Below, piece by piece: positions 23,462 to 40,705 of a DNA stretch of 64,000 bases. The translations under genes and the position numbers were made by a program. Each line of letters begins with the position of its first letter. Within the stretch, counting starts at the first letter, position 1. This DNA is from Marinifilum caeruleilacunae (lineage in GTDB: Bacteria; Bacteroidota; Bacteroidia; Bacteroidales; Marinifilaceae): positions 1-64,000 of the forward strand of contig NZ_RZNH01000017.1 in NCBI RefSeq assembly GCF_013141825.1. The letters are read 5' to 3'. The notes under the pieces are model-generated. The model worked only from the letters and a program-made list of their open reading frames with translations. It did not search any database and was not told the DNA's origin.

Positions 23462-23469
23462 TATATTTG
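23462..23469 (+). promoter_or_regulatory. Promoter -7 box for the micro-ORF and susC leader
   Basis: TATATTTG matches TAnnTTTG exactly. Transcription from here would give a leader of about 440 bases before susC, containing the 24-codon micro-ORF and five hairpins (23584-23893). Confidence 0.5.
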
Positions 23470-23550
23470 CTGCAAAGGTTTTCATTTAAACCTGGAGTTT
23501 GGATAGATGAAGTAGATGTTTTTATTAATCACACGTTAATGTTCATTCCC

Positions 23551-23625
23551 ATGCGACAACAAACAACCGTAAAACTAGTGTACAGACATTCACACCGTGG
23601 ACTCTTTGAATGTCTAATTTGTTGA
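23551..23625 (+). CDS. 24-residue micro-ORF in the susC leader, copy 1
   Basis: A short ORF from ATG 23551 to TGA 23623-23625; an in-frame ATG at 23539 would add four codons. Its product starts M-R-Q-Q-T-T-V-K and ends R-G-L-F-E-C-L-I-C. It aligns without gaps to the 24-residue micro-ORF at 31629-31703, with identical residues at 1, 11 (Y), 14 (S), 17 (G), 18 (L), 20 (E), 21 (C), 23 (I) and 24 (C), plus K/R at 16 and F/Y at 19. Within the coding region codons 12-14 can pair with codons 19-22 (9-base arms). A second hairpin places the Cys24 codon in its loop. There is no signal peptide or membrane segment. It lies 293 bases upstream of susC. It may be a regulatory leader peptide or a small secreted or modified peptide. 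I do not recognise the family. Confidence 0.6.
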   Translation: MRQQTTVKLVYRHSHRGLFECLIC

Positions 23626-23668
23626 TTACCTCTTATGACTTTTGGAATAGCTACCAACTATTTCCAAA
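23584..23668 (+). promoter_or_regulatory. Three consecutive hairpins over and after micro-ORF copy 1
   Basis: Hairpin 1 has arms AGACATTCA (23584-23592) and TGAATGTCT (23607-23615). Hairpin 2 is TAATT-TGTT-GATTA (23615-23628), sharing one base with hairpin 1; its loop is the last Cys codon plus the first stop base. Hairpin 3 is TTTGGAATAG with CTATTTCCAAA (23641-23668, one bulge). None has a following T-run, so these are not plain terminators. The order is the same as at 31666-31744. Confidence 0.5.
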
Positions 23669-23812: not shown

Positions 23813-23893
23813 ACAGGGAAAGCTACCAACAATCCCTGTTTACAAATAATTAATCGTTTGTTGTTCTGTACGCATATAATAAAGAACAACAAA
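23813..23893 (+). promoter_or_regulatory. Two hairpins just upstream of susC
   Basis: AACAGGGA (from 23813) pairs with TCCCTGTT (to 23840) around a 13-base loop. Then TTTGTTGTTCT (23857-23867) pairs perfectly with AGAACAACAAA (23883-23893), ending 25 bases before the susC ATG. The first resembles an attenuator and the second could hide or stabilise the translation start region. Confidence 0.45.
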
Positions 23894-23918: not shown

Positions 23919-26900
23919 ATGAAAAAAAACGCAAAAACTATTGTGCGGAAATCATTCGCGCAACAGTGCTTGGTTTCATGGATGATGAAACTTTGCATCC
24001 TGGCCGTTTTAGTAGGACCAATGCCTGTTCTGGCTTCGGATTCTTCAGAAACTTTCACTAATCAGCAAAATCAAAAAAAGATTTCGGGAACAGTTGTTGA
24101 TGAACAAAATTTACCACTGATTGGAGTAAACATTGTTGTTAAAGGAAGTACCATTGGTACCGTAACAGACTTCGATGGAAATTTCCAATTGGATGTCCCT
24201 GAAAATGCAATGTTGATATTCTCTTTTATTGGTTATGTAGATCAGGAAATTGTAGTGGGCAACGAAAGCACTTTCAATGTAATCCTTAAAGAAGATGTTC
24301 AGGGGTTAAATGAGGTGGTAGTAGTTGGGTATGGTACTCAGAAAAAATCGGACTTAACAGGGGCAGTTGCTTCTGTAAAAGCTGAAGATTTGGCTAAGAC
24401 ACCATCTTCGAACCCTGTAAATGCTTTACAAGGGAAAGTTGCGGGTGTTACCATTACAAAATATGGTGGTGCTCCAGGTTCGGGGTCAAACATTACCATT
24501 CGTGGTATTGGTACCATTGGAAATAACAACCCATTGTACATTATCGATGGATTGCCAGGCTCAATGTCTTTGTTAAATCCTGATGACATTGCTTCTATCG
24601 AAGTATTGAAAGATGGTGCAGCTGCTGCTATTTATGGTTCTCGTGCTGCAAATGGTGTGGTTTTAATCACTACCAAAAAAGGAAAAGCTGGTAAAGTAAA
24701 TGTTGATTTCAACATGCACGTAGGTTCGGTTAAAGCAATCGATCAGTTAGATTTACTAGATTCTGAAGGTTATGTGAAAGTACACAGAATGATGTACGAA
24801 AACTACAACCAATATGCATCTCCTGGTGATCAAAACCCAATTCCAACATATGTAACTGATCCTATTATGGCGAATACCGATTGGCAGGATGAAGTTTCTG
24901 GAAACGGATTACAGCAATTTTACAACCTTAGCATTAATGGTGGCAACGAATTGGGATACTATGGTATTTCGGGAAGTTGGAATGATGAAGAAGGTTCACT
25001 AATGGGAAGTGAATATCTTAAGAAAACTCTTCGTGCTAAACTTGGTATGGAAAAAGGACGTCTTAAAGTTGATGCCAACATCTCATATGCTGAAACCAAC
25101 TCAAAAAGCGCTAAATTTTCCTTACGCGATACTTACAACTTAACACCTTTAATTTCTCCTTTTGATGAAGATGGTAACGTTCAGTTGACTTATGGTGATA
25201 TGCCAGCAAATGCGAATCCATATGCAAATCACATCAACAGAAAAGGTGAAACAGATCTACAGTATTTTTCAGCGAATGTAACAGGTCGTCTTAAAATTAC
25301 TGATTACTTATCGTACCAGGTAAATTTAGGTTTGATCAATAGCAATAATATTGAGTGGAGCTACCACCCAAAATTCCAGCGCAGTCCTAAAGATGGTGAA
25401 GATTGGATTTACTATGGTGAGGAGAGAAACAACTACCGTTCTCAAATCATGGAGCACTTGATTAACTTCCAAAAAGATTTTGGCAAGCATTCGGTAAGTT
25501 CTGTGATTGGTTATACTGCATCAGAAGATACAAACCATTGGATTGGAGCTAACGTAACAGGTAAAAAAACAGAATATTCTGCCGAAGACGATAACGTAAT
25601 CACCAATGATATTCCTGCTGGTTTCCTTGATCCAAATTTCATGACTTTGAATGGTGGTGAAGGTGGTACTTACGATGCTTATGGTAGCAAGAATGAATAT
25701 ACTCGTACTTCTATTTTAGGTCGTATTAACTATTCTTACGACAACAAATATCTTGTTCAGGTAACAGCTCGTCGCGATGGTTCTTCTAAATTTGGTGAAG
25801 ATTCTCGTTTCGGAACTTTCCCATCGGTAGCATTGGGTTGGAGAATTACCGAAGAAGCTTTCATGTCGGAATATGACTTTATCGATAACCTAAAATTACG
25901 TGCTTCCTGGGGTAAATTAGGTAACGAGGTAACCTTAGGATTGTATTCGTACCAGGCCCTAATTAGCTCGGGAACCGATTACAACACTGGTGCCGTTAAA
26001 GGTACAGGTGCAAACCCATGGACAGGTAGCATTGCTCGCGACCTTGAAAACAAAGAGTTACAATGGGAAACTACCATTTCTAAGAACTTAGGTTTGGATT
26101 TTGCATTCCTTAACTCAAAGATTACTGGTACAATGAACTACTACAACACAACTACAGAAGACATGTTGGTGGTTCGTAAACTTCCTGGATCAGCAGGTTT
26201 AAATAATCCTACATTAAATGTTGGAGAGATCGAAAACAAAGGTCTTGAATTGGAATTGGGATATCACAAAAACCAAGGTGATTTCACATATAATGTAAAC
26301 GCAACTTTCACAACCATTAAGAACGAAGTTATTAGCCTGGCTAATACCGATCAGGCCTTGTTTGGTGAAGGTTTGAAATTTGGCGATTCTCACTTCCCAA
26401 CTCAAACAAGAGTGGGTTCTGAAATTGGTGCCTTCTACTTGTACCAAACCGATGGAATCTTCCAGTCGATGGATGAAGTGAATGCACACGTAAACGCAGA
26501 TGGTGATCTTTTACAAGCTAACGCAAAACCAGGTGATATTCGCTTTAGAGATATGAATGGTGATGGTATTATCGATCCGGAAGATAAAGTATATTCTGGT
26601 TCAGGTATTCCTGATTTCACTTACTCACTAAGCTTTGACGCAAAGTACAAAGGTTTCGATTTCTCGATGATGTTCTACGGTGTTCAGGGCAATGAGTTGT
26701 ACAACGGAAACCGTTACTATTTGGAAAACATGTCGGCAGGACAAAACTTCCTTTCTTCAAGCTTGAATGCATGGACAGAAACCAACCGCAATACAAATGT
26801 TCCTAGAGCAGTATTGGGAGATCCAAACTCAAATACTCGTGAATCAACCAGATATCTTGAAGATGGTTCGTTCTTGAGATTGAAGAATATTGAATTGGGT

Positions 26901-27104
26901 TACACCTTACCAAAAGAAGTAATCAGCAGAATTGGACTTACCAAATGTAGAGTGTATGTAAATGCACAAAACATCTGGACAATGACTGATTATTCAGGTA
27001 TCGATCCGGAAGTTGGACGCGGTGATGTATTGAGTTTAGGTATCGACCGTAGCTTCTACCCTATCAACAAATCATTCTTTGCTGGTATTCAACTATCATT
27101 CTAA
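23919..27104 (+). CDS. SusC/RagA-type TonB-linked outer-membrane transporter
   Basis: An outer-membrane importer of 1061 residues that works with the SusD-like lipoprotein encoded next. A signal peptide (about residues 1-40) is followed by a carboxypeptidase-D-like domain (I-S-G-T-V-V-D-E-Q-N-L-P-L-I-G-V). Then come the segment E-V-V-V-V-G-Y-G-T-Q-K-K-S-D-L-T-G-A-V, a plug domain (V-L-K-D-G-A-A-A-A-I-Y-G-S-R-A-A-N-G-V) and a 22-strand barrel ending G-I-Q-L-S-F. The susD start is 18 bases after its stop. No carbohydrate enzyme lies within 12 kb downstream, while a string of peptidases does. By analogy with RagAB it may import peptides; this is inference. Its mRNA carries a long structured leader. 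Confidence 0.93.
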   Translation: MKKNAKTIVRKSFAQQCLVSWMMKLCILAVLVGPMPVLASDSSETFTNQQNQKKISGTVVDEQNLPLIGVNIVVKGSTIGTVTDFDGNFQLDVPENAMLIFSFIGYVDQEIVVGNESTFNVILKEDVQGLNEVVVVGYGTQKKSDLTGAVASVKAEDLAKTPSSNPVNALQGKVAGVTITKYGGAPGSGSNITIRGIGTIGNNNPLYIIDGLPGSMSLLNPDDIASIEVLKDGAAAAIYGSRAANGVVLITTKKGKAGKVNVDFNMHVGSVKAIDQLDLLDSEGYVKVHRMMYENYNQYASPGDQNPIPTYVTDPIMANTDWQDEVSGNGLQQFYNLSINGGNELGYYGISGSWNDEEGSLMGSEYLKKTLRAKLGMEKGRLKVDANISYAETNSKSAKFSLRDTYNLTPLISPFDEDGNVQLTYGDMPANANPYANHINRKGETDLQYFSANVTGRLKITDYLSYQVNLGLINSNNIEWSYHPKFQRSPKDGEDWIYYGEERNNYRSQIMEHLINFQKDFGKHSVSSVIGYTASEDTNHWIGANVTGKKTEYSAEDDNVITNDIPAGFLDPNFMTLNGGEGGTYDAYGSKNEYTRTSILGRINYSYDNKYLVQVTARRDGSSKFGEDSRFGTFPSVALGWRITEEAFMSEYDFIDNLKLRASWGKLGNEVTLGLYSYQALISSGTDYNTGAVKGTGANPWTGSIARDLENKELQWETTISKNLGLDFAFLNSKITGTMNYYNTTTEDMLVVRKLPGSAGLNNPTLNVGEIENKGLELELGYHKNQGDFTYNVNATFTTIKNEVISLANTDQALFGEGLKFGDSHFPTQTRVGSEIGAFYLYQTDGIFQSMDEVNAHVNADGDLLQANAKPGDIRFRDMNGDGIIDPEDKVYSGSGIPDFTYSLSFDAKYKGFDFSMMFYGVQGNELYNGNRYYLENMSAGQNFLSSSLNAWTETNRNTNVPRAVLGDPNSNTRESTRYLEDGSFLRLKNIELGYTLPKEVISRIGLTKCRVYVNAQNIWTMTDYSGIDPEVGRGDVLSLGIDRSFYPINKSFFAGIQLSF

Positions 27105-27122: not shown

Positions 27123-28658
27123 ATGAAAAAATTATTATATATACTTAGTGCAAGTATCCTGTTGGGATTGTCTTCTTGTGACGAAGATTTTATGGATACA
27201 AAATCGCCAGACCAGTTAACTGGTGATAGCTTTTGGAGAAATGTGAGCGATGCAGAAGCCGGATTGGCAGCTGCCTACTCGCAAATGGAATGTGCAACCT
27301 CGTACTGGGGATTTGCAGAAATTAAATTCCCTGTTGAAATGTACCCATCAGATTTGGTAAGAATTGGTGGCGATGCATACAACTATGAAGATTGGTTGTC
27401 GATTTACAACTTTAACGTAAACTCTGCAAACACGCAAACTACTTCGTATTGGAACATCCACTACAAAGGAATTAACTTTGCAAACCAGGTGATCGAAAAA
27501 GTAGGTGAAATGACCGAAGAGCAAATCGATCAGGCAAAGAAAAATGAAATTATTGCCGAAGCTCACTTCTTAAGAGGATACTATCACCTTAAGCTGTTAT
27601 TGGCCTGGGAGAAAATTATTGTAAGAGATGCTTACCCTAAAGGACTTTCGGATATCGATAAAGCATTAAGCGAAAGAACCGAATGTTGGGATTTTATTGT
27701 AGCTGATTTTGCAAAAGCTGCTGCTACTCTTCCTGGTTCGTACGATAGCGCAAACGTAGGTAGAGTAACCAAATGGGCTGCTTATGCATACCTTGGAAAA
27801 GCGAACCTTTACCGCGCTGGTGAAGAAAGCGCCAACTCTGGTGAGTATTACAATGCAGCAAAAACGGCTTTCGCCGAAGTGGTAAACTCAAACAACTTCT
27901 CTTTGGTTGATAATTTCATTAGCATGTTCGATGGAACAAACCAGAACTCAAGCGAAGCAGTTCTTGAATTGCAGCTTTCGAACAATACCGATAATGGTGC
28001 ATGGTTCAAGTTCCCACATCACCGTTGGATCAAGCCTAAAGGTTTGTACGGATGGGACGAAATTGCAGGTAGCGCATTCTTATTGGAAGAGTTTAAAAAA
28101 GAAGGCAAAGTAGCAACAGATGGTCGTTACGATCACCGCTTGTACGGAACCTTATTCTTCGATGATGACTATTTTAACGATTCTGATAACCCAAGAGTTT
28201 ACGGATACACCTTCAGAGAATGGTGGGATGCAAGCAGCACTGCTTACGATTACACTGGTTTCAGAAAATATTTGCCATCAACAAGAGAAGAGCTGGATGC
28301 TTACAGCCATGGTAACAACATGCCATTAATGAGATATGCTGATGTTTTATTGATGTATGCAGAAACGCTAAACGAGCTGAACGAAACTGCAGCAGCTATT
28401 CCACATATCAACAATGTAAGAGCTATGCATGGTGGTCTTCCTGCAATGACTGGAACAGATAAAGCAGCTGTTACAGCACAAATCGAACACGAAAGAATTT
28501 GTGAATTTGCAATGGAAGGTTCACGTTTCCACGACCTGCGTCGTTGGGGCAAGCTGAACGAAACCATGGCTGCCCATGGTAGAAGCGGTGTAACTGATGC
28601 TAGTCACTTTTTCCCTATTCCGGAATCAGAAGCCAATTCGAACAACAACATAGATTAG
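27123..28658 (+). CDS. SusD/RagB-type outer-membrane lipoprotein
   Basis: The surface lipoprotein lid of the SusC transporter, 511 residues. The lipobox ends L-S-S-C (C19). SusD features follow: the N-terminal helix region (S-F-W-R-N-V-S-D-A-E-A-G-L-A-A-A-Y), TPR-like helices (F-L-R-G-Y-Y-H-L-K-L), and a C-terminal region with M-P-L-M-R-Y-A-D-V-L-L-M-Y-A-E and E-R-I-C-E-F-A-M-E-G-S-R-F-H-D-L-R-R-W-G. Together with SusC it should bind peptides or a related polymer. The transcript may end at the hairpin at 28699-28728. Confidence 0.93.
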   Translation: MKKLLYILSASILLGLSSCDEDFMDTKSPDQLTGDSFWRNVSDAEAGLAAAYSQMECATSYWGFAEIKFPVEMYPSDLVRIGGDAYNYEDWLSIYNFNVNSANTQTTSYWNIHYKGINFANQVIEKVGEMTEEQIDQAKKNEIIAEAHFLRGYYHLKLLLAWEKIIVRDAYPKGLSDIDKALSERTECWDFIVADFAKAAATLPGSYDSANVGRVTKWAAYAYLGKANLYRAGEESANSGEYYNAAKTAFAEVVNSNNFSLVDNFISMFDGTNQNSSEAVLELQLSNNTDNGAWFKFPHHRWIKPKGLYGWDEIAGSAFLLEEFKKEGKVATDGRYDHRLYGTLFFDDDYFNDSDNPRVYGYTFREWWDASSTAYDYTGFRKYLPSTREELDAYSHGNNMPLMRYADVLLMYAETLNELNETAAAIPHINNVRAMHGGLPAMTGTDKAAVTAQIEHERICEFAMEGSRFHDLRRWGKLNETMAAHGRSGVTDASHFFPIPESEANSNNNID

Positions 28659-29093: not shown

Positions 29094-29699
29094 ATGAAGA
29101 ACAGCCTTATCATACTTGGATTTTTTGCGTTGGGATTAATTCTGGGACTAACCAGATTTCTTCCAGAAGTAATAATGGAATCTGATTTCTCACTTTATGC
29201 CCTTTACCTTTTAATGTTTTTGGTAGGAATTGGCATTGGTGCCGACCGATCATCCTGGAGGGTGATTAAGGAAACCAACATTAAAATTATACTTGTACCC
29301 TTGTGCGTTATCATTGGCTCATTGGTTGGTGTTGGGCTAATCTCTGTATTCACACCCGGAATACAATTAAAAGAAGCTTTAGCAGTAGGAGCCGGTTTTG
29401 GTTACTATAGTTTATCTTCTATTTTCATCACTCAAATTAGCGGCGAAACCTTAGGAGTTATCGCTCTACTATCAAACATCTTACGTGAAATCATCACATT
29501 GCTTGCCGTACCTGTTTTTGTAAAATACTTTGGTAAACTTGCCGGTATTGCATCGGGTGGAGCCACAGCAATGGATACAACACTTCCCATCATATCAAAA
29601 TACACGGGAAAAGAATGGGCAATCATTGCCATATTTAGCGGAATTGTGCTAACAATACTGGTTCCTTTCCTTGTTCCTTTTATTCTGGAAGTGTTCTAA
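29094..29699 (+). CDS. LysO-family lysine exporter, C-terminal subunit
   Basis: A 201-residue inner-membrane protein with six or so hydrophobic segments. It includes the Lys_export motifs G-I-G-I-G-A-D-R-S, V-G-A-G-F-G-Y-Y-S-L-S-S, and G-G-A-T-A-M-D-T-T-L-P. It probably pairs with the 90-residue protein just upstream to form a complete lysine exporter. The M6 protease gene follows 19 bases later on the same strand, so the three genes are likely an operon. Confidence 0.87.
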   Translation: MKNSLIILGFFALGLILGLTRFLPEVIMESDFSLYALYLLMFLVGIGIGADRSSWRVIKETNIKIILVPLCVIIGSLVGVGLISVFTPGIQLKEALAVGAGFGYYSLSSIFITQISGETLGVIALLSNILREIITLLAVPVFVKYFGKLAGIASGGATAMDTTLPIISKYTGKEWAIIAIFSGIVLTILVPFLVPFILEVF

Positions 29700-29718
29700 T
29701 TAAATTAGAATTTAACCC

Positions 29719-31533: not shown

Positions 31534-31628
31534 CTGATTAATAAATATTTATTCGGGTACAGTTTTTACAATTTTCAAATTATTATTTGCGTTTTTTTTC
31601 TAAATTTACCCAAGACAAATTCAAATGT

Positions 31629-31703
31629 ATGTTTCTATTTAACGACTACATAACGCACTACAATAACTCGTACAAAGGCTTGTACGAGTGTTGGATTTGT
31701 TAA
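31629..31703 (+). CDS. 24-residue micro-ORF upstream of the aminopeptidase gene, copy 2
   Basis: The ATG at 31629 leads to TAA at 31701-31703. The product starts M-F-L-F-N-D-Y and ends S-Y-K-G-L-Y-E-C-W-I-C. It has the same length as copy 1 (23551-23625), aligns without gaps, and shares nine identical residues, seven of them in the last eleven. The codon region for N13-K16 can pair with that for L18-C21 (10-base arms, 4-base loop), and the next hairpin has the Cys24 codon in its loop. DNA identity between the copies is low outside the last codons, so conservation at protein level and at pairing level suggests selection and not a recent repeat. It may be a regulatory leader peptide for the peptidase operon or a small functional peptide. 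Not a family I recognise. Confidence 0.6.
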   Translation: MFLFNDYITHYNNSYKGLYECWIC

Positions 31704-31744
31704 TCCCTCCCATATTCACGATTGTATCAGAAATTCTTATTTCT
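31666..31744 (+). promoter_or_regulatory. Three consecutive hairpins over and after micro-ORF copy 2
   Basis: Hairpin 1 has arms ACTCGTACAA (31666-31675) and TTGTACGAGT (31680-31689). Hairpin 2 is GGATT-TGTT-AATCC (31693-31706), with the last Cys codon in the loop. Hairpin 3 is AGAAAT-TCTT-ATTTCT (31729-31744). The order and the TGTT loop match copy 1 while the stem sequences differ. Confidence 0.5.
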
Positions 31745-31815: not shown

Positions 31816-33198
31816 ATGTTTACAAAAGAAACTTATCAAAAACGCAGAGAACTATTAAAATTAACAGTAAAATCGGGCATTCTATTATTCTTGGGGAATG
31901 ATGAATGTGGCATGAACTATGCCGATAATACATATCACTACCGCCAGGATAGTACCTTTTTATACTTCTTTGGTTCCGATTATGCCGGCTTAAATGCCAT
32001 TATTGATATCGATGAAAATCGTGAAATTATTTTTGGTGATGAATTGACTATCGACCATATCGTTTGGATGGGTACCCAACCTACCATAAAAGAAAAGAGT
32101 GAAGCAGTTGGTATTAACGAAACTGCACCAAGCAATCAACTTAAGGAGTATTTAGGCAAAGCAATTGCTCAAGGCCGTAAGGTACATTATCTACCTCCTT
32201 ACCGTCCGGAGCACCAGGTTAAATTATTGAACTGGATGAATATTCATCCGGATCAGGCTGTAGAAAATTCATCGAGCGAATTTGTTCAGGCAGTTGTAAA
32301 TCAAAGAAATTACAAAACGGAAGAGGAAATTATTCAGATAGAGGAAGCTGTAAACATTACCGCAGATATGCACCTAACGGCAATGAGAATGGCTAAGCCT
32401 GGGATGAAAGAATCGGAAATTGCTGCTGCGGTGCAGGAAGTTGCCATTCGCGCAGGTGGTCAGCTTTCTTTTCCAACAATTGCGACAATAAATGGCCAAA
32501 CATTACACAATCACTATCATGGAAACACCATTAAAAGTGGTGATATGGTCTTGATTGATTGTGGTGCCGAAAATGGGATGCACTACGCAGGTGATATGTC
32601 GAGCACATTCCCTGTGAACAAAACATTTACCGAACGACAAAGAGAAATTTACCAGGTTGCCTTAAATGCACACGAAGCTGCCATAGCTGAGTTAAGACCT
32701 GGCGTTCGTTTTAAAGATGTACACCTGAAAGCTTGTAAAACCATTGCCGAAGGAATGAAGCAAATGGGTTTCATGAAAGGCGATATGGATGAAGCCGTTC
32801 ATCAGGGTGCACACGCATTATTTTTCCAATGTGGATTGGGACATATGATGGGATTGGATGTTCATGATATGGAAAATCTTGGAGAAGTATATGTAGGCTA
32901 CAATGGTGAGGCAAAAAGCACGCAGTTTGGTTTAAAATCCTTGCGTTTGGGAAGAGAATTAGAGCCAGGCTTTGTACTCACAATCGAACCTGGAATTTAC
33001 TTTATCCCGGAACTAATTGATATGTGGAAAGCAGAAAAGAAATTTGCCGATTTTATCAATTACGATAAAGTAGAAGAATACAAGAATTTTGGAGGATTGA
33101 GAAATGAAGAAGATTTCTTGATTACAAAGGATGGAGCTCGTTTATTAGGTAAGCCGATTCCTAAAACCATTGAAGACGTAGAATCTCAAAGATCATAA
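31816..33198 (+). CDS. pepP: Xaa-Pro aminopeptidase (M24B)
   Basis: A dimetal exopeptidase removing N-terminal residues that precede proline. I start at ATG 31816; the frame reaches back to a TTG at 31789. The 460-residue protein has an N-terminal creatinase-like domain (to about 165) and a C-terminal pita-bread domain. Metal ligands are D248 (V-L-I-D-C-G-A), D260 (H-Y-A-G-D-M), H343 (L-G-H-M-M-G-L-D-V-H-D), E391 (T-I-E-P-G-I-Y-F) and E431 (L-R-N-E-E-D). No signal peptide, so cytoplasmic. It heads a run of genes for proline peptides and hydroxyproline, and is preceded by a structured leader with a micro-ORF. Confidence 0.93.
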   Translation: MFTKETYQKRRELLKLTVKSGILLFLGNDECGMNYADNTYHYRQDSTFLYFFGSDYAGLNAIIDIDENREIIFGDELTIDHIVWMGTQPTIKEKSEAVGINETAPSNQLKEYLGKAIAQGRKVHYLPPYRPEHQVKLLNWMNIHPDQAVENSSSEFVQAVVNQRNYKTEEEIIQIEEAVNITADMHLTAMRMAKPGMKESEIAAAVQEVAIRAGGQLSFPTIATINGQTLHNHYHGNTIKSGDMVLIDCGAENGMHYAGDMSSTFPVNKTFTERQREIYQVALNAHEAAIAELRPGVRFKDVHLKACKTIAEGMKQMGFMKGDMDEAVHQGAHALFFQCGLGHMMGLDVHDMENLGEVYVGYNGEAKSTQFGLKSLRLGRELEPGFVLTIEPGIYFIPELIDMWKAEKKFADFINYDKVEEYKNFGGLRNEEDFLITKDGARLLGKPIPKTIEDVESQRS

Positions 33199-33424
33199 TT
33201 ATACCAAATCTACATTAAAATGAACTCAATTATTTTGTTCTTTTGCGTTTATCTTTCGTTAAAAAATATCCCCGTAGCTTAGGCTATGCATCTATTTTTT
33301 ATCTCATCTAAACCCAAAATATTCCAAATAATTTAAAGCTCATTTTAAAATAGAATTGGAATTAGTTTTTGTTTCCATCTGGAGGGTGAGAGTCTCAGCT
33401 CTCCCCTCTTACACCATTGAACCA
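33199..33424 (+). other. Intergenic region with hairpin before the reductase gene
   Basis: It holds a hairpin at 33382-33408 (GAGGG-t-GAGAG pairing with CTCTC-CCCTC, one bulge, 6-base loop) that ends 16 bases before the preferred ATG of the next gene. No T-run follows. It may modulate translation of the reductase gene. Otherwise nothing recognised. Confidence 0.45.
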
Positions 33425-34384
33425 ATGCTAATACTCAATCAAAATCAGATCAAAAACCTCTTTTCAAGCCATGAGGTTCTTGAAGCAATAGAGCGGGCTT
33501 TCAAAATTTTCCACGAAAACAAATTTGAAATGCCTGATCGGATGCATGCGCATCACGAGGATATCACTCTTTTGTTAATGCCTTGTTTTACCGAAGGATT
33601 TTTTGGCACCAAACTGGTAAGTGTGAATCCAAAAAATACGGCGATAGGGAAGCCGTCTATTTATGGGAGCATGATTTTAAATGATTCCAAAACAGGTGAA
33701 CCAATTGCCTTACTAAACGGAGCTGCTCTTACTGCGGTTAGAACTGGAGCTGTTGGAGCAAGCGGCATCAAATACACGAGCAAAGAATCTGCTCAAAATA
33801 TTGGAATTATTGGAACTGGTATCCAAGGATTTACACAAGCTATATTTGCTTGTGCAGTTCGACCTGTGAAAAAAATTCATGTGTTTGACTTGAATGAAGA
33901 GAAACTGGCTGAATTTGCTGCGTCACTTCAAGAAAAATTGCCCGAAGTTGAAATATGCAGCCAAACATCATCCGAAACATTAGTGAAAGAATCGGATGTT
34001 ATTATTTGTGCTACCAGTGCAAATGAGCCTGTAATTCCAGATGATCCGGAACTGCTAAGAGGCAAATGTTTTATTGGCATTGGATCGTACAAACCAAACA
34101 TGAGAGAATTGCCTGATGCTCTGTTTTCACTGATTGAAAATGTATGGGTAGATACGCCTTTTGCTGCTTTTGAAAGTGGAGATATTGCAAAGCCTCTCGA
34201 AAAAGGTTTACTAGGCGAAAAACAGGTAAAACCCATTAGCAATTTGGTGGCAAACGAAACTTATGACTCATCGGAAACAAGCTTCTTTAAATCGGTAGGA
34301 ATGGCATTGTTTGATGTCCTTGTAGCCGAATACCTGTATCAAAAAGCAATAAAAGAAAACATCGGAACCCAAATCGACTTATAA
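33425..34384 (+). CDS. Ornithine cyclodeaminase/mu-crystallin family protein, probable pyrroline-2-carboxylate reductase
   Basis: An NAD(P)H-dependent enzyme of the OCD/mu-crystallin superfamily, 319 residues from ATG 33425. The frame is open from 33356, but the extra 23 residues do not look like the family. It shows the family N terminus with P-D-R-M-H-A-H, the substrate region T-A-V-R-T-G-A-V-G-A, and the Rossmann motif I-G-I-I-G-T-G-I-Q-G. Some members reduce delta1-pyrroline-2-carboxylate to L-proline. The trans-3-hydroxyproline dehydratase gene two genes downstream makes exactly that substrate, so I favour this activity. Ornithine cyclodeaminase or another imine reductase remains possible. 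It lies 1 base from the S9 peptidase gene. Confidence 0.8.
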   Translation: MLILNQNQIKNLFSSHEVLEAIERAFKIFHENKFEMPDRMHAHHEDITLLLMPCFTEGFFGTKLVSVNPKNTAIGKPSIYGSMILNDSKTGEPIALLNGAALTAVRTGAVGASGIKYTSKESAQNIGIIGTGIQGFTQAIFACAVRPVKKIHVFDLNEEKLAEFAASLQEKLPEVEICSQTSSETLVKESDVIICATSANEPVIPDDPELLRGKCFIGIGSYKPNMRELPDALFSLIENVWVDTPFAAFESGDIAKPLEKGLLGEKQVKPISNLVANETYDSSETSFFKSVGMALFDVLVAEYLYQKAIKENIGTQIDL

Positions 34385-34385
34385 A

Positions 34386-36644
34386 ATGAAAAGTACTCCT
34401 TACATACTAATATTCATGCTGTTTGTAAGCTCATACAATCTATTTGCTCAAGGTGAGCTGAAAGATTATCAGGAAGCTGAAAAATGGCTTTGGAAAAATA
34501 TCGAAAGTAAAATTTACAAAAGCAATATCTACCCCAACTGGATTGGGAAAGGCGATTCCTTATGGTACAGCACCAAAACACGAAAAGGACAGGAATTTTT
34601 TCTTGTTGATATCAAAAACAAAAAACAGGAGGAGCTCTTCGATCATCAAAAAATGAGCGAAGCGCTAAGCACTTATACTGGTACAGAGTTAAAAGCTTAT
34701 GAACTCAAATTAAAACAGTTAAAGCTTAAGAATCAAAGCAAACTCGAGTTTGCTCTTGATACTTTCCTGCTTTCGGTCGATCTGAAAACTTACAATGTAT
34801 CGAAGCGAGAGAAAGAAAAAAAATATCGCAGTCAGGAACTGCTTTCACCAAACAAAGAGAAAATTGCTTTTATTAAAGATTATAACCTATTCCTAAAATC
34901 GGGAGATGAAGAGAAACAATTGACTACTGATGGGAATGCAGAATTGAGTTATGGAACCTCAATTTCTTGGTATTTCGTGAAAAACGAAAGTCAGAACCAA
35001 AAAATGGAATACGAGATTGATGCCTATTGGTCGCCTGACTCACGATACCTGATTTGTGCAAAATACAACCGAAAGCATACACAAAAGTTGTTCATGTACA
35101 AATCGACTCCGAAAGAAGGGTTCAGAGCCGAAGTGTATTCCTACGAAAGACCCATTGCCGGCGATAAAGACCTGACAAGGGTTTCCTATGTGGTTTTTGA
35201 TACACAAACAGGCAAAACCATAGATTGTGATCTTCCTGAAAACGCCACTTTCCTGGAGTATGGATTTCAGTGGAAATCGAACACAAGAGCATATACACTT
35301 CGCTATTATAGAGGTTATCAGAAAAGAGAACTCATAGAGTTGGATGTGGCAACGGGTAAGAGCAGAAGCATCGTTTCGGAAACTGCAGATACTTACGTTG
35401 ATCCAAACATGCACATTTACAAAGTGAACAAAGAGTCTGATGATGTGATTTGGACGTCGGAAAAGGATGGCTGGCATCACTTGTATCGCTATAGTTATGA
35501 ATCAGCAAGTTTAAAAAATCAGATCACGAAAGGAGAATTTGTAGTAAGAGAAATTTGCAAAGTGGATTACAAAAAGAAAAAAATCTACTTCAGAGCAAAT
35601 GGAAAGGAAGAAGGAGATCCATACTACACCTACCTCTACTCCATTAATTTTGATGGAAGCGGAATGAAACTCTTATCGCCAGAGAATGCATTTCATAGCT
35701 GCAGAATAAGTCCAAACGGCAAATATATTTTCGACAATTATTCTCGTGTTGATCTTCCCGATCGATTTGTAATCAGAAGTGCTAAAAGTGGGAAAAGGGT
35801 GATGGATATTGCTGAAACCGATATCCAGGACATTCTAAAAATGGGTTGGAAAGCTCCCGAAATGTACTCGGTAAAGGGCCGTGACAATGAAACCGATATT
35901 TATGGTGTGATTTACAGACCATTTAATTTGGATGCTACAAAAACCTACCCTGTTCTTGATGGCACCTACTCGGGACCACAAACCATACGCACTCCAAAAA
36001 CTTTTCGCCGCGGCCTAATTAATATGGATGTGCCAATGGCTCAGATTGGTTTTGTTGTGGTAACAGTTGATGGTATGGGATCTGCCTTCAGATCGAAAAA
36101 ATTTCACGATGTTTCCTATAAAAACCTTGGGGATATTGGGGCACCTGATCATATCAAAGCCATTAAAGACCTGGCAAAAAAATATCCATACATGGATATA
36201 GAAAATGTTGGGATTTATGGCCATTCTGCTGGAGGTTACGATGCTACTCATGCATTACTGGCTCATCCTGATTTCTACAAAGTTGGTGTTTCATCAGCAG
36301 GGAATCATGACCACAGAAGTGCAAAGGCCTGGTGGCCCGAATTGTACATGGGTTTCCCTGCAGGAAAACATTACGATGAACAGTCAAACTTTTTTATGGC
36401 AGACAAGCTGGAAGGAAAGCTATTATTGGTTCATGGAAATATGGATAACAATGTAAATCCGGCTGCTTCTATTCGAATGGCCGATGAGCTGATTAAAGCC
36501 AATAAGGATTTTGAATTGATTCTTCTGCCCGGCAAAGATCATGGAACTTGTTATTACGATACATATTTTATTCGCAAACGCTGGGACTTCTTTGTAAATT
36601 ACCTGATGCACAAACATGCTCCAAAAGAGTTCAAAATTAACTAA
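34386..36644 (+). CDS. S9 family prolyl dipeptidyl peptidase (DPP-IV-like)
   Basis: A serine exopeptidase that releases dipeptides, typically Xaa-Pro, from peptide N termini. It has 752 residues with a signal peptide ending L-F-A-Q. An N-terminal beta-propeller (to about 490) includes A-Y-W-S-P-D-S-R, and a C-terminal alpha/beta-hydrolase domain follows. The catalytic triad is S614 (Y-G-H-S-A-G-G), D687 (H-G-N-M-D-N-N-V) and H719 (P-G-K-D-H-G-T). The nucleophile elbow G-H-S-A-G-G departs from the G-W-S-Y-G-G of classical DPP-IV, so substrate preference may differ. Periplasmic. It follows the reductase gene by 1 base and precedes the dehydratase gene by 10 bases, so they are one operon. Confidence 0.9.
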   Translation: MKSTPYILIFMLFVSSYNLFAQGELKDYQEAEKWLWKNIESKIYKSNIYPNWIGKGDSLWYSTKTRKGQEFFLVDIKNKKQEELFDHQKMSEALSTYTGTELKAYELKLKQLKLKNQSKLEFALDTFLLSVDLKTYNVSKREKEKKYRSQELLSPNKEKIAFIKDYNLFLKSGDEEKQLTTDGNAELSYGTSISWYFVKNESQNQKMEYEIDAYWSPDSRYLICAKYNRKHTQKLFMYKSTPKEGFRAEVYSYERPIAGDKDLTRVSYVVFDTQTGKTIDCDLPENATFLEYGFQWKSNTRAYTLRYYRGYQKRELIELDVATGKSRSIVSETADTYVDPNMHIYKVNKESDDVIWTSEKDGWHHLYRYSYESASLKNQITKGEFVVREICKVDYKKKKIYFRANGKEEGDPYYTYLYSINFDGSGMKLLSPENAFHSCRISPNGKYIFDNYSRVDLPDRFVIRSAKSGKRVMDIAETDIQDILKMGWKAPEMYSVKGRDNETDIYGVIYRPFNLDATKTYPVLDGTYSGPQTIRTPKTFRRGLINMDVPMAQIGFVVVTVDGMGSAFRSKKFHDVSYKNLGDIGAPDHIKAIKDLAKKYPYMDIENVGIYGHSAGGYDATHALLAHPDFYKVGVSSAGNHDHRSAKAWWPELYMGFPAGKHYDEQSNFFMADKLEGKLLLVHGNMDNNVNPAASIRMADELIKANKDFELILLPGKDHGTCYYDTYFIRKRWDFFVNYLMHKHAPKEFKIN

Positions 36645-36654
36645 TCGATTGGCT

Positions 36655-37695
36655 ATGAAAATTACAGATAATTGGAAGTGGCAAGCTCCACAGGATTGGT
36701 TAAAAATTAAAACCATTGATCTTCATACAGGAGGCGAGCCTTTAAGAGTATACACCAGTGGTCTACCTGAAATAAAAGGAAATACCATCCTGGAAAAGAG
36801 ACGATATTTTAGAGATCATTTCGATTACATTAGAACGGGAACCATGTGGGAACCTCGCGGACATGCAGATATGTACGGAGCGATTATTACCGAAGCAACT
36901 ACTGATGATGGTGATTTTGGTACCTTCTTTCTGCACAACGAAGGTTACAGCACCATGTGTGGCCATGCCATGATCGCACTGGTTACATTGGTTTTAGATA
37001 CCGGAATGATTGTGCGCGATGAGCAAAATCCGATCATTAAAATTGATGCGCCTCCGGGTAGAATTACCTGTAAAGCATTTCGAAAAAACGGAAAAGTTGA
37101 AAAGGTGAGTTTTCAGAACGTTCCTTCTTTTATGCCTTTAAAAGATCAAATTGTTGATGTTCCCGGAATTGGGAAAGTAAAATTTGATATTGGCTATGGT
37201 GGTGCTTTTTATGCCTATGTGCAAGCCGAAGATTTGGGTTTACAACTGGATGAAAAGGATTACAACCGATTGATTGATTATGGCCGAAAAATCAAATATG
37301 CTGTTATGGATCAGTTTGAAATCAAACATCCTATCGAAGAAGATCTGAGTTTCCTGTATGGAACCATTTTCATTGGAGAAGCCAAAGACCCAAAACATCA
37401 CAGTAGGAACGTGTGCATTTTTGCCGAGGGCGAAGTAGATCGCTCTTCAACAGGTTCGGGTGTTAGCGGCCGAGCAGCCATCCATTTTGCCAAAGGAGAG
37501 TTAGCCATGAATGAGGAGATTATCATTGAGAGTATTCTGGGAACATGTATGAGTGTGAAAGTTCTGGAAACTTGTAATTACGAAGGCATTGATGCCATTA
37601 TCCCGGAAGTGAGCGGAACTGCCTCCATTACGGGGCAAAATGAATTCTATTTCGATCCTAATGATCCATTAAAGGATGGATTTATTTTCAGATAA
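36655..37695 (+). CDS. trans-3-hydroxy-L-proline dehydratase (proline racemase superfamily)
   Basis: Dehydrates trans-3-hydroxy-L-proline to delta1-pyrroline-2-carboxylate. It has 346 residues from ATG 36655; the frame starts earlier at 36616 but those residues overlap the previous gene. Family motifs are D-L-H-T-G-G-E-P and, at the first catalytic site, M-C-G-H (C102). The second site reads D-R-S-S-T-G-S-G-V-S-G-R: Thr (T266) stands where proline racemases and 4-hydroxyproline epimerases have Cys. This Cys/Thr pair is the known signature of the dehydratase (in human L3HYPDH, Cys104 and Thr273, from memory). Cytoplasmic, no signal peptide. Its product would be reduced to proline by the OCD-family enzyme encoded upstream. 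Confidence 0.88.
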   Translation: MKITDNWKWQAPQDWLKIKTIDLHTGGEPLRVYTSGLPEIKGNTILEKRRYFRDHFDYIRTGTMWEPRGHADMYGAIITEATTDDGDFGTFFLHNEGYSTMCGHAMIALVTLVLDTGMIVRDEQNPIIKIDAPPGRITCKAFRKNGKVEKVSFQNVPSFMPLKDQIVDVPGIGKVKFDIGYGGAFYAYVQAEDLGLQLDEKDYNRLIDYGRKIKYAVMDQFEIKHPIEEDLSFLYGTIFIGEAKDPKHHSRNVCIFAEGEVDRSSTGSGVSGRAAIHFAKGELAMNEEIIIESILGTCMSVKVLETCNYEGIDAIIPEVSGTASITGQNEFYFDPNDPLKDGFIFR

Positions 37696-37710: not shown

Positions 37711-39006
37711 ATGAACAAACTAAGAACTAAAATTTTCTCACTTCTCTTTGTACTAAGCATTGGTCTTGCTGCATGTACTCAACCAAAGAGCCTGGTAGAG
37801 CGACTTGAACAGCTGCCCGATGTAACAGTGCAAAAAATAAGCGGAGATACAAGCTACACAGAATATTACGAGCTATACTTTACGCAGCCTTTAGATCATG
37901 AAAACCCTGAAGCCGGAACTTTCAAACAAAGAGTTCTGTTGGGACATCATGCCATTGAAAAACCAATGGTGGTTGAAATTCAGGGATACAATATCTGGAC
38001 CGAAAGAGCCGGAGAATTAAGCAAGCTTTTGGATGCCAACCAGCTTACCATTGAGCATCGATATTTTAAAAATTCAATGCCTGATAGTCTTGATTGGAAA
38101 TATCTGAACATTAAACAAGCTGCAGCTGATCAACACAAAGTGATACAGGCACTGAAGAATATTTATCAGAACAAATGGATTACCACAGGAATTAGCAAGG
38201 GTGGACAAACCACAATTTACCACCGCTTTTTCTATCCAAATGATGTGGATGTAAGTGTGCCTTATGTAGCACCTCATAACCTGGCTCGTGAAGACAAAAG
38301 AATTCACGAACACCTTGCCAGTGTTGGCAGTAAGGAATGCCGTGATAAAATTTATGACTTTCAATTGGCCTGTTTCAAAAACAAGAAAAACATGCTTCCA
38401 TTGGCAAAAGCTCATGCCGAAGAAAAAGGCTATTCTTTCTCGATGGGACTTGAAAAAGCGCTTGACCTATCCATTTTGGAATATTCGTTTGCCTTCTGGC
38501 AATGGGGAGGAACAAAATGTGAAGACATTCCTTCTTCTGATACTGAAGCTTCAGTATTATTCCAACACCTGGTACGCGTTTCGGGTATGGATTTCTTCGA
38601 CGAGATCAGTCTAAAGCCTAGCCTTGCTTTCTACCACCAGGCATTGAGCCAAATTGGCATGTACAGCTATGAGATAGAACCCTTCAAGGCATATTTGGAC
38701 TATGAAGAGGATTTGACTTTTGATCATGTTTTCCCAAATGAACCAATCAGGAAATTTAATCCGGAAGCCATGATTGAAGTGAACCAATGGCTTCAATCTG
38801 ATGCAGAAAGAATGCTTTTCATTTATGGTGAATGGGATACCTGGTCGGCTACAGCTGTTGATCTAAAAGAGAATACTAAATGTAAGAAATTTGTGAACCC
38901 GGAAGGGGCGCATGGCACCCGCATAAGACACTTTCCTCCTGAAATGAAAAAGGAGATTATCAAGACATTGGAGAAATGGCTGGAGATGCCAATTGCCAAT
39001 GAATAA
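37711..39006 (+). CDS. S37-like prolyl (tripeptidyl) aminopeptidase, lipoprotein
   Basis: A serine peptidase of the S37 family, related to Streptomyces prolyl tri/tetrapeptidyl aminopeptidases. It has 431 residues with a lipobox ending L-A-A-C (C22). The body begins with Y-E-L-Y-F-T-Q-P-L-D-H, typical of S28/S37 enzymes. The nucleophile Ser162 lies in T-G-I-S-K-G-G; the likely acid is in Y-G-E-W-D-T-W and the likely His in P-E-G-A-H-G-T-R. Periplasmic or outer-membrane location. It follows the dehydratase gene by 15 bases in the same operon. The exact cleavage unit is from family knowledge. Confidence 0.85.
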   Translation: MNKLRTKIFSLLFVLSIGLAACTQPKSLVERLEQLPDVTVQKISGDTSYTEYYELYFTQPLDHENPEAGTFKQRVLLGHHAIEKPMVVEIQGYNIWTERAGELSKLLDANQLTIEHRYFKNSMPDSLDWKYLNIKQAAADQHKVIQALKNIYQNKWITTGISKGGQTTIYHRFFYPNDVDVSVPYVAPHNLAREDKRIHEHLASVGSKECRDKIYDFQLACFKNKKNMLPLAKAHAEEKGYSFSMGLEKALDLSILEYSFAFWQWGGTKCEDIPSSDTEASVLFQHLVRVSGMDFFDEISLKPSLAFYHQALSQIGMYSYEIEPFKAYLDYEEDLTFDHVFPNEPIRKFNPEAMIEVNQWLQSDAERMLFIYGEWDTWSATAVDLKENTKCKKFVNPEGAHGTRIRHFPPEMKKEIIKTLEKWLEMPIANE

Positions 39007-39076
39007 TTAGCAATGAATGATTAAAAACAGAGAACTTGAGATAACATACAGCTTCTCGAAACCAATTTCTGAAAAG

Positions 39077-40705
39077 ATGAAAAAACTAATCATACTAACA
39101 ATTTTTGCTTGCCTGATACTTCCGAAAAGTCATGCATGTACCGATATTGTAGCCGGTAAAAAAGCAACAGTAGATGGTTCTGTAATTACTTCGCATACTT
39201 ATGGTGGTAACGATACCAGGATAAGAGTGGTACATGGTAAGAAATTTCCTGCTGGTTCTAAAGCACCTGTGTACTACGGACTGCAAGAGATCAATGGCGG
39301 ACTGGAAGAATATGGCGAAATTCTGGGCTATGTGCCACAGGTTCAACAAACCTACACCTATTTCCATTCTGCCTACTCGCACATGAATGAGTTTCAGTTG
39401 GCAATTGCAGAAAGTACCTTGAGCCAGAAGAAAGAACTACAGGTTGACAGAGATTCTGGCAAGCAGATCATGACAGTAGAGCAAGCTCAGATTTTTGCTC
39501 TACAAAGATGCAAAACAGCTCGTGAAGCGATTAAGCTGATTACTTCGCTGATGGAGGAATATGGTTTTCTGCCTTCCTGCGGACCAGAATCGGAAGCACT
39601 ATGTATTGCAGATCCTGACGAAGTATGGGTATTGGAAATTGTAGCGGTTGGAAAAGACTGGGAGCCAAATTCAGGCAAATCGGGAGCCATTTGGGCTGCG
39701 CAAAGAGTACCCGACGATCATATTGCCATTGTACCCAACTGGAGCATTATCAAGGAGATTGATTTAAGTCAACCTGAATGGTTCATGGCTTCGAAGAACT
39801 ACAAGCAAGTAGCCATCGATCATGGATGGTACGATCCGAAATCGGGGAAACCATTTATCTGGCAGGAAGCCTACAGCCCAACATTGCGTGAATGGTCGAG
39901 CGGAAGATTCTGGCTATTTTACTCAAAATATGCACCGAATTACAAAGACTGGCCTGATCGTAAATTGAGCGATCCGTTTACCGGACAAGATGCCTATCAT
40001 CAATATGTTGAAGATATTTCTATCTACCCTTTTTCTGTGAAGCCGGAGAAAAAAATATCTGTTCGGGATATTATGGAATTCCAGCGCTCTACCTTCGAAG
40101 GAACCATTTACGACAAAACATCGGATCCCGATTGGTATATACCTAACAAGGAAGGCAAATTGGTGAAAAGTCCACTAACTACTCCTTTCCCAACAAAGGC
40201 AATGCGCGAATTACTCGATATTACCAATCGTAGAAATGTATCTAAAGGTAATTATGGTATGATTTGCCAGCTGCGATCATGGCTGCCAGATCCTATAGGT
40301 GGGATTTACTGGGTATTCCAGGATAACCAGTATACTTCGCCATATGTTCCAATTTATTGTGGAACGCAGGAAATTCATGAGTCTTATAAAATTTATGACC
40401 CGAACCAGTACGATCCAAGATCGGCTCGCTGGGCCATCGATTTTGTGGATAACCTGCTCTATTTAAGATGGCAGGATGCTGTACAGGATATGTTTACAAT
40501 GAGAGAGCCATTGCAAGAAGATTTTTTCAAGCAGATTGAAGAAAATGACAAGCAAGCCAAAAAACTATATGATAAAAGCCCTAAAAAGGCGAAGGAATTC
40601 CTGACCGAAAAGTGTCATGAAAACATGCAAAAAGTGTTGGATGTATACAATGAAATCAGGAATACATTAATTACCAAATACACAAACAACAAACACGGAT
40701 CGTAA
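39077..40705 (+). CDS. C69 family dipeptidase
   Basis: An N-terminal nucleophile dipeptidase (PepD/U34 family), 542 residues from ATG 39077; the frame begins at 39017 but the extra 20 residues spoil the signal peptide. The signal ends K-S-H-A and is followed by C21 in C-T-D-I-V-A-G-K-K-A-T-V-D-G-S. Removing the signal peptide would expose Cys as the catalytic N-terminal nucleophile, as expected for C69. Further conserved stretches are A-Y-S-H-M-N-E-F-Q-L-A-I-A-E-S-T and P-E-S-E-A-L-C-I-A-D-P-D-E-V-W-V-L-E-I. Periplasmic. Last gene of the prolyl-peptide operon, with a strong terminator after it. Confidence 0.92.
   Translation: MKKLIILTIFACLILPKSHACTDIVAGKKATVDGSVITSHTYGGNDTRIRVVHGKKFPAGSKAPVYYGLQEINGGLEEYGEILGYVPQVQQTYTYFHSAYSHMNEFQLAIAESTLSQKKELQVDRDSGKQIMTVEQAQIFALQRCKTAREAIKLITSLMEEYGFLPSCGPESEALCIADPDEVWVLEIVAVGKDWEPNSGKSGAIWAAQRVPDDHIAIVPNWSIIKEIDLSQPEWFMASKNYKQVAIDHGWYDPKSGKPFIWQEAYSPTLREWSSGRFWLFYSKYAPNYKDWPDRKLSDPFTGQDAYHQYVEDISIYPFSVKPEKKISVRDIMEFQRSTFEGTIYDKTSDPDWYIPNKEGKLVKSPLTTPFPTKAMRELLDITNRRNVSKGNYGMICQLRSWLPDPIGGIYWVFQDNQYTSPYVPIYCGTQEIHESYKIYDPNQYDPRSARWAIDFVDNLLYLRWQDAVQDMFTMREPLQEDFFKQIEENDKQAKKLYDKSPKKAKEFLTEKCHENMQKVLDVYNEIRNTLITKYTNNKHGS

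Follow-up and report, generated by a model that had tools for sequence, protein, structure and literature searches.

A conserved family of short, probable leader peptides preceding prolyl-peptide and hydroxyproline utilization genes in Bacteroidales

Introduction

Metabolite-sensing arrest peptides are, to our knowledge, known for few ligands only and usually for one operon each. A described system that resembles the locus presented here is TnaC of the Escherichia coli tryptophanase operon, a peptide of about 24 residues whose gene directly precedes an operon for amino-acid catabolism and in which the conserved motif reaches the stop codon (PMC8429421, in the parts of that source drawn on here). 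A rut site follows directly after tnaC and is hidden by the ribosome that is arrested at the stop codon (PMC8429421). SpeFL, which senses L-ornithine, is a further case of stop-codon release controlled by a non-proteinogenic amino acid and, thus, a precedent for hydroxyproline sensing (PMC8429421). Within the phylum Bacteroidota, arrest uORFs of the NAP-stop and NSP-stop types likewise carry conserved C termini next to the stop codon; they end, however, in proline and are located before protein-localization genes such as secDF (PMC10987492, as far as the excerpted part goes), whereas the family described here ends in ECWI-x and precedes proline and hydroxyproline genes. Leader peptides in Bacteroidota are also suggested by long 5' UTRs containing sORFs in Bacteroides thetaiotaomicron (PMC7366714) and by leader-peptide candidates in Flavobacterium psychrophilum (PMC9723704), and the excerpts of these two reports name neither such a family nor such a target class for their candidates.

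Compared with TnaC, the present family shares the peptide length, the position before catabolic genes and the motif next to the stop codon, and a C/U-rich tract follows the stop at the position that the rut site has after tnaC. In contrast, TnaC has a C-terminal Pro24 (PMC8429421, same excerpt), while proline is absent from the final residues of the 98 peptides analyzed here. Further differences are that no sequence similarity was noticed, that other genes are targeted, that several operons per genome carry a leader, that phylum and promoter are different, and that arrest is here a prediction. A literature search for the motif strings, or for hydroxyproline in combination with leader peptide and stalling, retrieved no description of the family in a corpus with few subscription papers and preprints, and further searches listed no more than the precedents named above. 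The arrest leader peptide is a known kind of regulator; the family, its dispersal over a whole regulon and the ligand proposed here are, as far as could be seen, new.

Two related micro-ORFs in the window

The window, i.e. the whole analyzed stretch of 64,000 nucleotides from Marinifilum caeruleilacunae, contains two ORFs of 24 codons (Table 1) which, as claimed in the first-pass annotation, are identical in nine of 24 residues (M1, Y11, S14, G17, L18, E20, C21, I23, C24). When all 136,503 pairs of the 523 ATG-started ORFs of 15–40 codons in the window were ranked by C-terminal similarity, using BLOSUM62 over the last 8, 12 or 15 residues, this pair occupied rank 1, with a score of 38 at 8 residues versus 27 for the runner-up. 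Copy 1 runs from 23551 to 23625, where a TGA stop closes the frame; its end had been placed at 23628, three bases too far. A second in-frame ATG at 23539 allows a copy 1 peptide of either 28 or 24 residues. In blastn searches of copy 1 or copy 2 against their own genome, only the self-match was returned at E 0.001; mobile-element DNA hairpins were therefore dropped as an explanation, no dispersed DNA copies being found in this way. In total, the genome contains four leader copies, located before SusC, PepP, DPP-IV and HypD genes.

Table 1 Features of the two leader loci of the window and further leader copies in the same genome
Feature	Position	Strand	Description
Leader peptide ORF, copy 1	23551..23625	+	MRQQTTVKLVYRHSHRGLFECLIC-stop (TGA); HMM E 8.6e-8; scan score 30.5
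Leader peptide ORF, copy 2	31629..31703	+	MFLFNDYITHYNNSYKGLYECWIC-stop (TAA); HMM E 2.4e-10
Leader, third own-genome copy	contig 29, 90543-90608	minus	before DPP-IV
Leader, fourth own-genome copy	contig 66		second form of leader; before HypD
Promoter -7-like element, copy 1	23462..23469	+	TATATTTG; pattern TAnnTTTR
Promoter -7-like element, copy 2	31601..31608	+	TAAATTTA; pattern TAnnTTTR
C/T-rich, G-poor tract after copy 1 stop	23626..23665	+	T16 C10 A10 G4 in 40; candidate Rho loading region
C/T-rich, G-poor tract after copy 2 stop	31704..31743	+	T16 C11 A10 G3 in 40
SusC/RagA TonB-linked outer-membrane transporter	23919..27104	+	presumed copy 1 target; Pfam, NCBIfam TIGR04056
SusD/RagB partner	27123..28658	+	Pfam
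Xaa-Pro aminopeptidase (PepP; M24 with AMP_N domain)	31819..33198	+	Pfam; first gene after copy 2
Ornithine cyclodeaminase / pyrroline-2-carboxylate reductase-like protein	33356..34384	+	Pfam PF02423; NCBIfam all below cut-offs
Dipeptidyl peptidase IV-like S9 peptidase	34386..36644	+	Pfam
Proline racemase family, nearest trans-3-hydroxy-L-proline dehydratase	36616..37695	+	Pfam PF05544; NCBIfam NF045511, 368 bits, cut-off 540
S37 (PS-10) peptidase	37711..39006	+	Pfam
C69 family dipeptidase	39017..40705	+	Pfam

The peptide family and its distribution

The leader peptides form a real family, found repeatedly throughout Bacteroidales and in a small number of other Bacteroidota. Its consensus reads ..LYHxxGKGL[FY]ECWIx-stop; in an alignment of 46 sequences (A4), L18 and C21 are invariant and the N-terminal half is without conservation. 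A second form, xYRRLF[ESN]CL[MI]FYN-stop with variants, is found before a second clade of HypD. The common length of 24 residues proposed in the first-pass annotation may hold for both window copies but not for the family as a whole: exactly 24 residues are encoded in 40 of the 92 loci with a single in-frame ATG, and 80 of these encode 23–25, the rest comprising 20–27 residues plus one peptide each of 51 and 63. The supposed terminal cysteine is likewise no family trait, as it occurs in only 41 of 98 reduced peptides (a set restricted to 19–28 residues, a restriction that does not apply to the 92-locus length count), and the others end in F, Y, L, N, I, W, T and further residues. The conserved motif ends one residue (67/74) or three residues (7/74) before the stop codon.

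As a check, it had been proposed to look for the motif as an ORF in other genomes, where profile, DNA-pattern and PSSM searches indeed found it on a large scale. Thirteen relatives have the micro-ORF upstream of the same Xaa-Pro aminopeptidase gene, namely four further genomes of the genus and nine from six other genera of the family; counted from the nearest ATG, it comprises 24 codons in every one of them. Including the own locus, this makes 14 of 30 Xaa-Pro aminopeptidase loci; one of the 16 leaderless loci begins at a contig end (L015). A profile of 14 peptides (A3) retrieved further copies across the order, and the subsequent A4 profile matched 77 of 295 genomes of the order Bacteroidales at E 0.02. 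In a sample of the whole phylum, it matched three of 395 genomes at E 0.01, own genome included; one of these matches (G673) is a leader before HypD, and another (G586) was dropped as a leader because it lies inside a frame of 885 codons. A degenerate DNA pattern hit 86 stretches in a collection of 84,980 species, and the 80 with names all belong to Bacteroidetes/Bacteroidota or taxa within, except for one MAG labelled Chlorobiota; the other six stretches (L200–L205) entered the analysis by their sequence. None of the four family peptides submitted to NCBIfam gave a match up to E 1.

Target genes

In total, 133 loci were collected, which are unique by a 100-base key only and of which four have no next gene in the DNA stretch examined; all counts given here derive from related genomes, with some species present twice, and are hence not independent. 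Next genes were assigned by blastp to identified proteins, with Pfam on representatives. Among the 129 loci, the next gene encodes HypE, the radical-SAM activase of hydroxyproline dehydratase, in 82 cases, the dehydratase HypD itself in one, PepP in 18, DPP-IV in 12, an S37 peptidase in ten, an M9 collagenase in two, SusC in one and a TPR protein in three. Thus, 125 of 129 next genes are HypE/HypD (83), PepP, DPP-IV, S37 or M9, i.e. peptidase, collagenase or hydroxyproline genes, which supports the initial suggestion of a regulatory leader peptide upstream of peptide-utilization genes and specifies the target class as prolyl-peptide, hydroxyproline and collagen utilization.

In the window, copy 2 precedes an operon whose gene families, with the exception of the C69 dipeptidase, have prolyl peptides or hydroxyproline intermediates as their substrates. 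Both hydroxyproline-type names in this operon denote nearest families, below the NCBIfam cut-offs (Table 1). The stretch between SusD and copy 2 (29094–31533) encodes LysO, a lysine exporter, and an M6 peptidase that carries a secretion-sorting tail. At three loci (L136, L191 and L202; Pfam assignments for the latter two), a TPR protein takes the position of the peptidase or HypD behind the leader, and at L202 the TPR gene is followed by a SusC-like fragment as judged by eye; possibly, the TPR protein is a regulator of the same regulon. At another locus (L065, 900–1259), the DPP-IV leader is separated from a flavodoxin-like gene by a fragment reading MPNHIHAIL.., a signature of REP-associated (RAYT) transposases.

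Co-occurrence with hydroxyproline dehydratase

The association was also assessed with HypD as the starting point. The HypD protein was searched in the 295 genomes of the order, and the upstream DNA of 110 chosen matches was scanned with a PSSM whose training set consisted in part of leaders from these genomes. These matches comprise 82 of the 83 in group A (at least 62% identity over the gene), 18 in group B (52–54%, the second HypD clade) and ten weaker ones; HypD was identified by NCBIfam and PDB, with NF043068 above cut-off in members of both groups and 6vxc as best PDB match. The micro-ORF was detected upstream of 61 of 82 group A and 13 of 18 group B HypD genes, while only one of 110 opposite-strand controls exceeded the threshold and none of ten other glycyl-radical enzymes had a micro-ORF in the same upstream scan. 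With an earlier PSSM built without the variant forms, the opposite-strand maximum was -2.1. At 21 of 82 group A and five of 18 group B loci, no leader was found in the scanned stretch; five of the 21 group A misses offer less than 1.2 kb of upstream sequence, and in one miss (G161) the leader is located farther upstream, before an S37 gene.

Of the 71 genomes in the order sample whose leader reaches E 0.001 or better, 68 have HypD, versus 106 of 295 overall (Fisher p 4e-35, relatedness ignored). Six genomes with partial or split matches (G076, G079, G111, G175, G231, G254), which were outside the upstream scan, are counted here as having HypD; in G254 (contig 22, 30426–33182), the gene is matched in three pieces. 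The three genomes with a leader and without HypD are G022, G039 and G095, and in the first two the leader stands before DPP-IV. Among the genomes of the phylum sample, 25 have HypD. The micro-ORF is found in all six members of the clade with 76–83% identity, the query's own genome included and four of them outside the order, and the other 19 loci, all outside the second HypD clade, gave no clear leader, the top score being 13.9 at about 1 kb from the gene versus an opposite-strand maximum of 9.2. The second leader form together with its HypD clade occurs in few genomes outside the order (L352–L357), and, as the HypD proteins there are 80–83% identical, a joint transfer of gene and leader is suggested by these sequences. 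The HypD activase comprises 265 residues in the main clade (L108, 2541–3335) and 302 in the second clade (L346, 5517–6422), the latter with Fe-S-protein matches around residues 50–100, and both score below the NCBIfam activase cut-off.

Promoter, stop codons and the tract after the stop

TAnnTTTG is the -7 promoter element of Bacteroidota (PMC7366714 and PMC9723704, in the parts drawn on). At 120 loci, the 40 bases preceding the ATG of the micro-ORF contain it 61 times in total, compared with 0–6 times per 20-base bin elsewhere. This peak just before the ATG suggests that the micro-ORF is often the first element of the transcript. The element of copy 1 lies 89 bases upstream of the ATG, which is less typical for the family.

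Directly after the leader stop, the DNA is rich in pyrimidines, accounting for 66% of the following 40 bases versus 49% farther upstream (105 loci, Wilcoxon p 8e-18); C exceeds G in 98 of 105 loci, and the 30 bases after 316 long-ORF stops in the same loci, which served as control, contain 46% pyrimidine. By its composition, this C/U-rich tract is a candidate Rho loading region. The stop codons themselves deviate in group A, with TGA in 32, TAG in 21 and TAA in eight of 61 leaders, so that TGA or TAG closes 53 of 61 leaders versus 65 of 145 long ORFs (TAA in 80 of 145). Since no such shift is seen in group B (TAA in 6/13) or in PepP leaders (TAA in 9/16), it lends weak support at most. In the susC leader, two copies of approximately GGRAWAGCTACCAACWAT are located 172 bases apart (23644–23661 and 23816–23833), each in a small hairpin as judged by eye, and a 14-bp inverted repeat is found at 23857–23893, just before susC.

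Proposed mechanism and alternative explanations

Starting from the observed selection at the level of translation (see below), from the location and target class of the leaders, and from the position of the promoter and the composition of the tract, we propose that a proline/hydroxyproline (collagen-peptide) regulon of Bacteroidales, and of some further Bacteroidota, is probably controlled by cis-acting leader peptides, with arrest at the stop codon relieving early termination. A TnaC-type switch is proposed because three parts coincide, namely a short ORF close to the beginning of the transcript, conserved C-terminal residues next to the stop and a C/U-rich tract behind it; stalling, its ligand, the direction of the response and the participation of Rho are what we infer from this arrangement. 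Transcription would start just upstream of the micro-ORF, which a ribosome would translate at once. If no inducer is around, this ribosome would terminate and leave, and the exposed C/U-rich RNA would permit early, Rho-type transcription termination. With trans-4-hydroxyproline, proline or a prolyl peptide in ample supply, release at the leader's own stop codon would be blocked by the nascent ..GKGL[FY]ECWI-x within the exit tunnel, and the stalled ribosome would cover the RNA, so that the downstream operon is transcribed.

The proposed ligand follows from the target genes, and trans-4-hydroxyproline would be the one that fits HypD best. It need not be hydroxyproline, since the three genomes named above carry a leader without HypD, and proline or prolyl peptides would fit these as well. 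A more specific version is put forward tentatively, as conceivable but short of probable: that GKGL[FY]ECWI-x-stop and the variant YRRLFxCLxFYN-stop sense free hydroxyproline, the marker of collagen, in the tunnel in a riboswitch-like manner and, dispersed before several unlinked operons, place collagenase, transporters and dehydratase under the control of stop-codon-stalled ribosomes without a dedicated transcription factor.

The same leader might instead undergo an arrest that is constitutive or set by release-factor or tRNA state, cysteine or redox, with its downstream effect on translation initiation or RNA stability instead of transcription. Such readings would accommodate the varying last residue and stop codon as well as the invariant Cys21 in A4, and the distances from leader to next gene, ranging from overlap to 361 nt, do not demand one mechanism. 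We nevertheless consider them rather unlikely, as the proline/hydroxyproline chemistry common to the targets argues for a matching ligand and the C/U-rich tract adjoins the stop codon. Cysteine sensing, one of the first guesses for this locus, found no support: the identified next genes include no cysteine gene and the final cysteine is variable, the last residue being different from Cys in 57 of 98 reduced peptides, so that such a role is not favored.

Very improbable is a classical attenuator, in which leader codons for Pro, Cys or Trp would stall the ribosome when that amino acid is scarce. Of 133 peptides, 41 contain proline at any position and five have it within the last 12 residues, no single-codon run stands out in the aligned peptides, and hairpin-plus-T terminators were detected in 14 of 113 intergenic stretches. 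Although a Trp codon and one or two Cys codons stand at the end of most copies, codon sensing would leave the conservation of the whole motif unexplained.

Coding selection versus nucleic acid structure

As an alternative to stop-codon arrest, the loci could represent a structured, riboswitch-like RNA element whose sequence is open by chance. In both window copies, a perfect stem indeed spans the last codons (9 bp in copy 1, 10 bp in copy 2), and stems of at least 8 bp occur in 16 of 124 loci versus five of 1240 shuffles. However, 12 of these 16 stems are tied to peptides reading SYKGLYE and are gone in homologues in which the peptide is kept (L012, L017, L021, L063). Folding energies are slightly better than those of shuffled sequences (70 loci, mean z -0.8, 11% below -2), and single-copy folding is inconsistent, with z 0.3 for copy 1 (121 nt) and z -3.3 for copy 2 (146 nt). 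RNAalifold predicted no structure for 60 of 124 ungapped, stop-anchored sequences, and Rfam gave no match in the window at gathering thresholds.

The substitutions follow the pattern of a coding sequence. In six close PepP leaders, pN is 0.022 and pS 0.60 over 24 codons (ratio 0.037), which bears out the earlier claim of selected coding. For 61 HypD leaders, pN/pS amounts to 0.25 over the nine core codons versus 0.58 over the eight codons upstream, and the invariant leucine is encoded by all six Leu codons, glycine by four and isoleucine by three. The first-pass annotation had named hairpins that are kept while the frame is broken as an argument against coding; the opposite was found, as stems disappear in relatives keeping the peptide and reading frames persist there. 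Judged from these sequence comparisons, the conservation of the micro-ORF is one of coding and not of DNA or RNA, and an RNA element is highly improbable.

Hardly credible, too, is a free product, i.e. a secreted signal or a radical-SAM-modified peptide with HypE, the first gene in 82 of 129 loci, as modifying enzyme, because nearly all copies stand just before a prolyl-peptide, collagen or hydroxyproline gene, no modifying enzyme is common to the loci, the same peptide precedes a peptidase at the PepP, DPP-IV, S37 and M9 loci, the own-genome group B locus (L346) is arranged in the order ORF, HypD, activase, and the non-conserved N-terminal half differs between the operons of the own genome.

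Implications

If the proposed stop-codon arrest is true, an abundant bacterial phylum would possess a regulon of dispersed proline/hydroxyproline leader peptides. The motif can be used in annotation and links the separate genes for M9 collagenase, DPP-IV, PepP, S37 peptidase, HypD and a SusC by function. Sensing of hydroxyproline by the ribosome would become directly testable, and the mechanism would explain how these bacteria decide on collagen use.
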